Positions 22,532 through 25,287 of a DNA stretch of 64,000 bases are shown in pieces. The stretch spans positions 1,798,001 through 1,862,000 of the forward strand of contig NZ_CP035914.1 of NCBI RefSeq assembly GCF_004209775.1, written 5' to 3'. The translations under genes and the position numbers were made by a program. The notes below the pieces were generated by a model, which worked only from the letters and a program-made list of their open reading frames with translations, was not told where the DNA came from and did not search any database. How positions within the stretch are numbered: position 1 is the first letter of the stretch; each line of letters starts with the position of its first letter. The stretch comes from Synechococcus sp. WH 8101. Its GTDB lineage: Bacteria; Cyanobacteriota; Cyanobacteriia; PCC-6307; Cyanobiaceae.

Positions 22532-23947
22532 TCAGTTCTGAACGTCGAGCTTGTCGACGGTGTCGAATTCGAACTTGATCTCCTTCCAGGTCTCGAGGGC
22601 GATGGCCAGCTCGGGGCTGTGCTTCGCAGCCTCGGTGAGGATGTCGCGGCTCTCCTTCTCGAGATGACGGCCAGCGTTGCGTGCCTTGACGCAGGCCTCG
22701 AGGGCCACACGGTTGGCCGCAGCACCTGCAGCGGAGCCCCAGGGGTGACCATGGGTACCACCACCGAACTGAAGAACGGAGTCATCACCGAAAATGGTGA
22801 CGAGGGCCGGCATGTGCCACACGTGAATACCGCCGGAGGCAACGGCGAACACACCGGGCATGGAACCCCAGTCTTGATCGAAGAAGTTGCCGCGGCTGCG
22901 ATCTTCGGGCACGAAGGATTCACGCAGCTGGTCGATGTAGCCGAGGGTGGTCTGACGATCACCTTCGAGCTTGCCCACCACGGTGCCGGTGTGGAGCTGG
23001 TCACCACCGGAGAGACGCAGACACTTGGCGAGGACGCGGAAGTGAATGCCGTGCTTGGGGTGACGGTCGATCACCGCGTGCATGGCGCGGTGGATGTGCA
23101 GGAGCATGCCGTTCTTGCGGCACCACTTCGACAGACCGGTGTTGGCGGTGAAGCCCCCGGTGATGAAGTCGTGCATGATGATCGGCATACCGAGTTCTTT
23201 GGCGAACTCAGCACGCTCGTACATCTCTTCCGGAGTGTTCGCGGTCACATTGAGGTAGTGACCCTTGCGCTCACCGGTTTCCTGCTCCGACAGCTTGATC
23301 GCTTCGGCAACGAACTCGAAACGGTTCTGCCAGCGCTGGAACGGCTGGGAGTTGATGTTCTCGTCGTCCTTGGTGAAGTCGAGACCGCCGCGCAGGCACT
23401 CATAGACCACTCGACCGTAGTTTTTGCCACTCAGGCCGAGCTTCGGCTTAATGGTGCAACCGAGGAGGGGACGACCGTACTTGTTCATCCGATCGCGCTC
23501 GACCTGAATGCCATTCGGCGGGCCGTAGCAGCTCTTGATGAAGGCGATCGGGAAGCGGATGTCCTCGAGACGCAGGTGGCGCAGAGCCTTAAAGCCGAAC
23601 ACGTTGCCGACCAGGGAGGTCAGCACGTTGGTGATGGAACCCTCTTCGAATAGATCGAGAGGGTAGGCGATGAAGGCATAGAAAGATTCCTTGTCACCAG
23701 GGACATCTTCGATGCGATAGCAACGGCCCTTGTAGAAGTCGAGGTCGGTGAGGAGCTCGGACCACACGGTGGACCAGGTGCCGGTGGAGGATTCCGCTGC
23801 CACAGCAGCAGCCACTTCTTCCTTGGGCACACCTTCCTGGCCGGTGCACTTGAAGCAGGCCAGAAGATCGGTATCGAGGGGAACGTAATCAGGAGTCCAG
23901 TACGTGTCCCTGTACTCCTTGACCCCTGCGTCGTACTTCTTGCTCAT
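22532..23947 (-). CDS. rbcL: RuBisCO large subunit (Form IA)
   Basis: This 471-residue catalytic subunit fixes CO2 onto ribulose-1,5-bisphosphate. The catalytic Lys in [11 protein letters not shown] (~167), the carbamylated Lys193 in GLDFTKDDE, and the C-terminal-domain phosphate-binding glycines ([10 protein letters not shown]) are present. The N-terminus [17 protein letters not shown] is typical of Form IA. GGAG lies seven bases upstream of ATG 23947. It lies 97 bases after csoS1 in the same orientation. Confidence 0.98.
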
Positions 23948-24044: not shown

Positions 24045-24356
24045 TCAGTCCTTCTGACCCAGGAAGTTGCCGTTGCCCAGAGCAGGCTCCACTTCACGGT
24101 GGGGGCGGGCGATGATGTGGGCAGCCACCAGGCCGTCGCCCACGCGCTCACAGGCATCGGCGCCAGCGCGAACGGCAGCGTTCACAGCACCGGTTTCACC
24201 GCGCACGAGCACGGTCACGTAACCGCCGCCGACGAACTCACGACCAATCAGGCGCACTTCAGCAGCCTTGGTCATGGCGTCAGCCGCCTCGATTGCGGGG
24301 ACCAGGCCGCGGGTCTCGATCATGCCGAGAGCGATGCCCATGGTTTCGTTAGCCAT
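24045..24356 (-). CDS. csoS1A: CsoS1, major hexameric carboxysome shell protein
   Basis: This 103-residue BMC-H protein tiles the shell facets. It has the family core GIALGMIETRGLVPAIEAADAM across residues ~7-28, the pore-side GREFVGGGYV, GETGAVNAAV and AHIIARPHREVE. It heads the carboxysome operon and is the gene nearest the LysR-type site upstream. Only one csoS1 copy is present here besides the diverged csoS1E and csoS1D. Confidence 0.96.
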   Translation of the reverse strand: MANETMGIALGMIETRGLVPAIEAADAMTKAAEVRLIGREFVGGGYVTVLVRGETGAVNAAVRAGADACERVGDGLVAAHIIARPHREVEPALGNGNFLGQKD

Positions 24357-24370
24357 TGCCTACCGGAGAA

Positions 24371-24385
24371 GGGGGTGGAATGTTC
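24371..24385. repeat. 15-base direct repeat, copy 1 (csoS1 leader)
   Basis: The sequence gggggtggaatgttc lies 15 bases before the csoS1 start. An identical copy is at 24602-24616. An exact 15-mer twice in 346 bases of non-coding DNA is unlikely by chance and may mark a protein- or RNA-binding site, but no known motif fits. Confidence 0.8.
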
Positions 24386-24462
24386 GCCGCTGACATTGCT
24401 CTGCCACGAGCCCAGACGTCAAGCGATCCGGCCCTGCTCGCGCATCACTGTCCATAGTGAAC

Positions 24463-24483
24463 CTGATAAGCGCAGCTAATCAG
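24463..24483 (-). promoter_or_regulatory. LysR-type (RbcR/CbbR-like) operator upstream of csoS1
   Basis: The site reads CTGAT-N11-ATCAG, a perfect five-base dyad around the classic T-N11-A LysR core. On the minus strand its centre is ATTAG-CTGCG-CTTAT, one base from the cyanobacterial RbcR consensus ATTA(G/A)-N5-(C/T)TAAT as I recall it. It is 107-127 bases before the csoS1 ATG, a position suitable for activation. Regulator identity is inferred. Confidence 0.7.
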
Positions 24484-24601
24484 CAAGGCCCCAACTGTTA
24501 CGAACGGCTGTGGGGGTTCCGGTGAGCACACCGCCACACAGCGTTGTCAATGCCCTGTGACCGCCATAACTTCACATTCGGAGACAGAACCCTGCGCTTG
24601 T

Positions 24602-24616
24602 GGGGGTGGAATGTTC
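24602..24616. repeat. 15-base direct repeat, copy 2
   Basis: Second exact copy of gggggtggaatgttc in the csoS1-rdgB intergenic region, 231 bases from copy 1 and about 90 bases before the rdgB start. Same orientation as copy 1. Confidence 0.8.
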
Positions 24617-24702: not shown

Positions 24703-25287
24703 TTGGCACGGCCCACCCTCACCATTGCCAGCGGCAACCCCATAAAAGTTGCTGAAATCGAGGCGATGCTCGGCCCTCTTCCCCTGGAGGTCCGTCGTCA
24801 GCCCTCGGATCTGGAGGTGGAAGAAACGGGTGCGTCCTACCTGGAGAACGCCCGCCTCAAAGCCAGGGCTGCCGCCCAACGCACCGGTCACTGGACCCTG
24901 GCGGATGACTCCGGCCTCGAGGTGGACGCCCTGGACGGTGCGCCCGGGCTCTATTCCGCCCGCTTCGCCCCCTCCGATGCCGACAAGGTGAGTCGGTTGC
25001 TGGAGGCCCTCAAAAACCACCCCTACCGCAGCGCCCGTTTTCGCAGCGCCATGGTGCTCTGCTCACCGCAGGGCGAGTGCCTCGAGGAAGCGGAGGGACT
25101 GTGCTGGGGAGAAATGCTTCAGGCTCCGGCCTATCCAGGGGGCGGCCTTGAATCCCTGTTCTGGGTGCGAGAAGCACAGTGCAGCTACGGCGAATTGAAT
25201 CCCGCCCAGCTGGCCCGCCTGGGCAGTCGTGGCAAAGCGGCCAGAACCCTGGCTCCCCGGCTACGGAGACGGCTCGGACTGGACTGA
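24703..25287 (+). CDS. rdgB: RdgB/HAM1 non-canonical purine NTP pyrophosphatase
   Basis: This 194-residue enzyme hydrolyses dITP, XTP and similar nucleotides to keep them out of DNA and RNA. Family motifs seen are TIASGNPIKVAEIEAML at the start, the metal site LADDSGLEVDAL, and GAPGLYSARFA. A TTG start at 24703 is used; the nearby ATG 24678 is in another frame. The C-terminal substrate region is shortened relative to E. coli RdgB. The gene next to cso operons in alpha-cyanobacteria is commonly this one. It is convergent with csoS1D, stops adjacent. Confidence 0.9.
   Translation: MARPTLTIASGNPIKVAEIEAMLGPLPLEVRRQPSDLEVEETGASYLENARLKARAAAQRTGHWTLADDSGLEVDALDGAPGLYSARFAPSDADKVSRLLEALKNHPYRSARFRSAMVLCSPQGECLEEAEGLCWGEMLQAPAYPGGGLESLFWVREAQCSYGELNPAQLARLGSRGKAARTLAPRLRRRLGLD

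Follow-up and report, generated by a model that had tools for sequence, protein, structure and literature searches.

A dyad ahead of the alpha-carboxysome operon

Much of the CO2 fixed in the ocean is fixed by marine picocyanobacteria. The locus studied here raises the question of the site and the regulator through which the alpha-carboxysome operon of Synechococcus sp. WH 8101 could be controlled. In the stretch of 64,000 nucleotides analysed (hereafter the window), csoS1, the first gene of this operon, lies on the minus strand (24045–24356) with rbcL/cbbL, encoding the Rubisco large subunit, downstream of it (22532–23947, minus strand). Both were confirmed by family models above cut-off (NCBIfam NF053791 and NF003252, respectively), while the names of the other operon genes come from their reading frames. 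The divergent gene (24703–25287, plus strand) belongs to the RdgB/HAM1 family (Pfam PF01725; NCBIfam TIGR00042 matched below its cut-off).

The first-pass annotation had described a perfect dyad around a T-N11-A core 107–127 bases before csoS1. The dyad, CTGAT-N11-ATCAG, is indeed present as CTGATAAGCGCAGCTAATCAG at 24463–24483 of the plus strand (CTGATTAGCTGCGCTTATCAG on the minus strand), 107–127 bases 5′ of the csoS1 ATG at 24356. It is the only perfect copy in the window, for which dinucleotide shuffles gave an expectation of 0.08 copies, 6 of 100 shuffles holding at least one. Nevertheless, the dyad by itself is weak evidence because 19 such places occur across the genome. When up to two mismatches were accepted, the whole window held 62 copies against 27 expected; with such an over-representation, dyad counts alone are misleading in this genome.

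The annotation had named a lack of the dyad in close relatives as grounds for refutation and, taken literally, fails by this criterion: perfect copies were found in only 2 of 27 genomes of the genus (this one and a single relative) and in 5 of 106 family genomes, this one again included. Its outer arms are poorly kept and their symmetry is weak, all three outer pairs being present in 7/106 with a mean of about 1.3 out of 3. The outer dyad was thus ruled out as the operator. What stands above chance is conservation, rather than the dyad itself.

A conserved core within the dyad

Conservation was examined in two samples. For the genus, 31 genomes were searched and 27, including this one, gave a complete csoS1. 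For the family, 83 further loci were picked by hand, not at random, to cover the genera among the matched genomes. Out of 110 csoS1 loci 106 were analysed, the four others (L113, L114, L116 and L124) being dropped as missed by the start-codon pattern; a family pattern search placed the element 127–129 bases before csoS1 in the genomes of all four.

The conserved part is the inner 15-mer ATTAGCTGCGCTTAT (24466–24480, minus strand), of the form AT-N-AG-N5-CTTAT and containing T-N11-A, which from its conservation in the family we predict to be the RbcR recognition site. AT-N-AG-N5-CT(T/A)AT was present in 102 of the 106 family upstream regions (98 with CTTAT) and the remaining four were one base off; the core starts 121–129 bases before the csoS1 ATG, and 34 genera are represented, with picocyanobacteria of both the ocean and fresh water among them. 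Within the genus, AT(T/C)AG-N5-CTTAT was found in 27/27 genomes. With equal weight per genus, nine fixed columns of the core reached frequencies of 0.97–1.00, while the third base, most of the centre and the flanks were variable. The T and A of T-N11-A had a frequency of 1.00 over the 106 loci; T-N11-A stands here within an imperfect dyad, as in LysR-type operators. The core also fits TNA-N7-TNA, a pattern generic for CbbR. By way of illustration and not as a count, nine loci of named genomes selected by a longer pattern, WH7803 included, all carried the core and the half-site described below, with csoS1 123–125 bases on.

The consensus of Synechocystis RbcR sites, as quoted in a review, is ATTA(G/A)-N5-(C/T)TAAT, and sites that activate lie about 90 nt ahead of the transcript start (PMC13249358). 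Against it, the site in this genome (ATTAG-N5-CTTAT on the minus strand) agrees at 9 of 10 positions, which bears out the annotation's statement that the inner part is one base off. The alpha-cyanobacterial consensus AT-N-AG-N5-CTTAT likewise shows one systematic difference, on the right side.

Half-site and promoter geometry

Exactly 18 bases after the core lies the tetranucleotide TGAT (24444–24447, minus strand), a predicted activation half-site; TGAT or TAAT occupied the same offset in 103/106 loci. Measured from right arm to right arm, T(G/A)AT is 22 bases from the core, on the same helical face and nearer to the promoter, a position in which LysR-type regulators would make their second contact. 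A half-site is not part of the RbcR consensus as quoted in the review (PMC13249358). A second local dyad, TCACT-N6-AGTGA (24445–24460), overlies it and is partly conserved in the genus of the window; the minus strand from 24460 to 24445 reads TCACTATGGACAGTGA, and in the genus alignment GTTCA...GGAC..TGAT is conserved around the half-site. Upstream of the core, the block AACAGT (24494–24499, minus strand) is partly conserved, with genus-weighted frequencies of 0.70–0.85 at four of its six positions.

On the promoter side, a predicted −35 box, TTGACG, lies at 24417–24422 (minus strand). TTGAC was present in 106/106 loci and its spacing from the core was conserved: its first base is 51 bases past the core centre in 100 loci, and 50–52 bases past it in 104. 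The distance from TTGAC to the ATG was 63–74 bases in 105/106, so that leader length is variable as against the fixed spacing of the operator. An activator site would need such a geometry, in which the distance from operator to promoter is held constant and the leader is freer to vary. The predicted −10 box, CAATGT (24393–24398, minus strand), of the form CA-N-N-N-T and 24 nt after the start of TTGAC, is weak and far from TATAAT. The hexamer at this place was CAATGT in 23, CATTGT in 21, CATGGT in 15 and CAGTCT in 14 of the 106 loci, and in 99 it began with CA and ended with T; a generic sigma-70 promoter scan gave no match. These boxes predict a csoS1 transcript start at about 24384–24387. Relative to this predicted start the core centre would lie at about −88, to be compared with the ~90 nt of activating RbcR sites. 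The order on the minus strand ahead of csoS1 is thus AACAGT, CTGATTAGCTGCGCTTATCAG, TCACTATGGACAGTGA, TTGACG, CAATGT, GAACATTCCACCCC and ATG.

RbcR as the candidate regulator

A single gene with a LysR helix-turn-helix above the Pfam cut-off was found in this genome. It encodes the RbcR orthologue, with both LysR domains, adjoins a gene which by eye is ndhF-like and lies about 0.56 Mb from the cso operon. Two neighbouring open frames (G000:C1:1021981-1023915) gave weak, partial LysR helix-turn-helix matches below the cut-off.

Among the matches listed, 148 of 151 family genomes carried at least one LysR helix-turn-helix gene above cut-off. A hand count of the same listed matches gave exactly one in 108 genomes, several in 41 and none in 2, and exactly one in all 12 genomes of the genus labelled g9. 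On these counts RbcR is not the sole candidate everywhere. Again among the matches listed, 31 of 32 further genomes in the class had an RbcR orthologue with 63–69% identity; LysR paralogues came next, at 36% or less. The recognition region is nearly identical in 21 alpha and 29 beta genomes (VTQPAVSLQIQNLEKQL versus VSQPAVSLQVQNLERQL).

The core, its conservation, its fixed spacing and the single clear RbcR of this genome are read from the DNA directly. We conclude that the site is probably the recognition element of an operator through which RbcR, a CbbR-like activator of the LysR type, would control the csoS1-rbcLS-csoS2 operon. RbcR would bind the core AT-N-AG-N5-CTTAT, whose centre is about 88 bases 5′ of the point where transcription is predicted to begin, and would make a second contact at T(G/A)AT 18 bases on. 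This half-site is two turns of the helix away from the right arm of the core and faces the same side. From there RbcR would aid RNA polymerase at a TTGAC/CA-N-N-N-T promoter whose −10 box is poor, presumably in response to a metabolite signal. If Synechocystis is a guide, a shortage of inorganic carbon should increase activation.

The gene of the regulator itself was examined in the same manner. With several half-site variants allowed, the 400 bases upstream of rbcR held no core of at least 9/10 positions in 20 of 21 alpha genomes (L035 and L140–L159), and the 21st (L159) showed a single 9/10 match at −32. Autoregulation of rbcR through a core within this range was accordingly rejected for these alpha genomes. 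The rbcR of Synechocystis is autoregulated according to the review passage cited above (PMC13249358).

For Prochlorococcus MED4, RbcR is the LysR-type regulator named in one paper (PMC6778093). Another proposes that its PMM0147 is functionally orthologous to a lysR of Synechocystis to which the regulation of rbcLS is attributed (PMC2663038). Control of rbcLS by RbcR in Prochlorococcus has thus already been proposed, and the mapped operator may be what is new: in the open-access literature, as far as its accessible text goes, we found no paper mapping an RbcR site ahead of csoS1. The site would be a LysR-family operator, nothing unusual in itself, at a locus for which that literature yielded no mapped one; the comparative evidence for it is unusually clean. 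With operator, half-site and promoter spacing precisely defined, and with one candidate regulator in most genomes, the old RbcR-rbcLS proposal becomes directly testable.

Comparison with beta-cyanobacterial and proteobacterial Rubisco promoters

The predicted operator resembles that of RbcR in Synechocystis PCC 6803, for which Bolay et al. 2022 is reportedly the reference: in both, a 15-bp inverted repeat with T-N11-A precedes genes for Rubisco and the carboxysome, and the distance of about 90 nt to the start of transcription would also be similar if our predicted start is right. It differs in having mostly CTTAT, not (C/T)TAAT, as its right half, in the free third base of its left half, in preceding an alpha-carboxysome operon described as horizontally acquired, and in the lack of a convincing site at rbcR.

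As a control we examined 28 beta-cyanobacterial rbcL regions within 700 bases (one of 29 loci, L191, was left out) for a core followed by (C/T)(A/G)AT at spacings of 3–40. With the core matching at all ten degenerate positions, a half-site at +18 was found in 6/28 regions and at any other offset in at most 2. With one mismatch allowed, the figures were 8/28 at +18 and at most 3 elsewhere. Two of the six genomes share a genus, leaving about five independent cases. By this peak at +18, the architecture is shared with some rbcL promoters of the beta-cyanobacteria, from which RbcR sites are known; 20 of the 28 regions lacked the element within 700 bases even with one mismatch. Six of the 28 genomes (L199, L200, L208, L209, L214 and L215) carried ATAAG-N5-CTTAT 108–110 bases before rbcL without a +18 half-site and were not counted. 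A TANNNT box lay 72–75 bases from the beta core centre in 4 of 7 sites and 84 bases from it in 3 of 7, two distances that differ by roughly a turn of the helix; in the alpha genomes the −10 box starts at 75. These boxes may lend weak support at most because the pattern is loose in AT-rich DNA, three being found in L193 alone.

The same arrangement was found in a proteobacterium. In the cbbR-cbbL intergenic region of Nitrobacter hamburgensis (L274:1790-1804), ATAAG-N5-CTAAT is followed by CAAT at exactly +18, and the half-site as a purely cyanobacterial mark was therefore abandoned. The architecture may be general to CbbR and RbcR, and it does not discriminate between a native and a transferred origin of the operator. 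Proteobacterial CbbR operators are described as TNA-N7-TNA or T-N11-A, with recognition and activation sites (PMC2942843). The predicted operator is like them in its fit to TNA-N7-TNA, in combining a recognition site with a second, downstream site, and in the +18 half-site of N. hamburgensis. A difference lies in gene placement: in proteobacteria a LysR-type gene often stands divergently to cbbL, as in two of the three loci examined, whereas the regulator gene of this genome is ~0.56 Mb away from the operon. The two CbbR-like proteins compared were 32–34% identical to the RbcR of this genome. Another relative, Ycf30, is the plastid RbcR of red algae (PMC4390856) and, unlike the regulator considered here, is plastid-borne.

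The cso operon has been described as acquired from proteobacteria, and cbbR is among the genes shown in such operons (PMC1904183). Together with the N. hamburgensis site, this would allow the operator to have arrived with the operon as a proteobacterial CbbR site, which the native RbcR then took over with the same code. We hold such an origin to be possible but rather doubtful, since the architecture was seen in only one of the three proteobacterial loci checked (it was absent from the other two of these plasmid Rubisco loci) and since its presence in 6–8 of 28 beta rbcL regions makes a native origin equally possible. It concerns the origin of the site rather than its present function and can be compatible with present control by RbcR. 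The predicted operator also suggests that one code may serve both the Rubisco regulator native to the host and an operon gained by horizontal transfer.

The proposal of the first-pass annotation that the logic of RbcR extends to the alpha-carboxysome operon holds up in substance. A LysR/RbcR-type operator appears well supported because the element is conserved at a fixed spacing from the promoter, because its architecture is common to some beta-cyanobacterial rbcL promoters and because RbcR is the only clear LysR-type regulator of this genome. The operator as it had been drawn, with the outer dyad, was wrong.

Other copies of the element and remaining explanations

ATNAG-N5-CTWAT was found at 10 places in this genome, with 15 strand matches against 6 for a reversed-pattern control. 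Of the nine places other than the csoS1 site, some are inside reading frames and others at edges of genes or between them, and none precedes a gene recognisable by eye as one of carbon fixation. A relaxed form of the full architecture occurred at three places in the 2.63 Mb genome (the csoS1 site, the gap between purM and an rlpA-like gene, and 2448332), versus one for the reversed pattern. A stricter pattern was present one to four times in 135/151 family genomes, with few control matches (among the matches listed).

The copy between purM and the divergent rlpA-like (DPBB) gene, both named from family models, is also conserved. It lies at G000:C1:527106-527142 in this genome (L137, L270) and recurs in many genera (L220–L232, L240–L269), although some copies lack the half-site and the orientation is not the same in every genus. 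The 250 bases preceding purM held a core matching at 8/9 positions or more, on either strand, in 28 of 30 loci, against 4% of shuffles; these 30 were the top matches among 101 genomes and not a random choice. Separately, in genus g9, a near-identical element ATAAGTTCA(A/G)CTTATAG(A/G)GGGTATGAGGGTAAGTAAT recurs (L235 ~2034, L236 ~2001), once on the other strand about 200 bases ahead of a gene which by eye is psbA-like; Rfam gave no match for it.

The purM copy, with no obvious carbon-fixation target, could also be read as the mark of a conserved operator of some other, unrecognised factor outside the LysR family, its likeness to RbcR sites being coincidental. The deviation of the half-motif CTTAT from the RbcR consensus and the lack of a convincing site at rbcR point the same way. 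We nevertheless consider this unlikely: the core contains T-N11-A, the offset of the half-site is shared with some beta rbcL promoters and with cbbR-cbbL of N. hamburgensis, and the predicted position at −88 resembles that of known RbcR activation sites. Sites of NtcA and complete HLR1 sites were rejected. The NtcA consensus GTA-N8-TAC occurred in 2/106 loci within 220 bases and in 8/106 within 500. The full HLR1 direct repeat, the motif pattern used for RpaB sites, occurred in 0/106, with single HLR1 halves in 21/106.

That the block is kept as a part of the promoter or leader, as an upstream element or RNA structure involving no regulator, would suit its closeness to the conserved −35 box and leader. 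It is very improbable, given that the block lies upstream of the predicted start, and would hence be untranscribed from that promoter, and that the columns conserved in it make up an inverted repeat whose centre varies. An RNA element was rejected: between 24000 and 25000, Rfam gave no family at gathering score and, up to E = 1, only a chance-level microRNA match inside the divergent gene. A chance dyad without function, for which the 19 genomic copies and the poorly kept outer arms might speak, is hardly credible and is contradicted by conservation, since the core and half-site keep their spacing across 34 genera amid mostly variable columns.

A direct repeat flanking the operator

A bolder reading can be built on the predicted control by RbcR. 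The RbcR of alpha-cyanobacteria, mostly the only LysR-type regulator left, would have shrunk to a tiny regulon of the carboxysome operon and the purM/rlpA-like gap, coupling CO2 fixation to purine synthesis via the ribose-phosphate pool. The cso promoter would in addition be gated by a second factor that forms a repression loop, bridging the GAACATTCCACCCC copy at the transcript start and another copy about 231 bases away, on the far side of the RbcR operator. As a whole we regard this as speculative and improbable.

The two copies form a direct repeat on the minus strand, the first at the start of the predicted csoS1 leader (24372–24385) and the second 231 bases further upstream (24603–24616), and could be a looping pair. 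A second copy with at least 11/14 matches was absent in 18 of 34 genera and present in 58/106 genomes, against 0.3% of shuffles, and its spacing was 229–236 bases in 55 of the 58.
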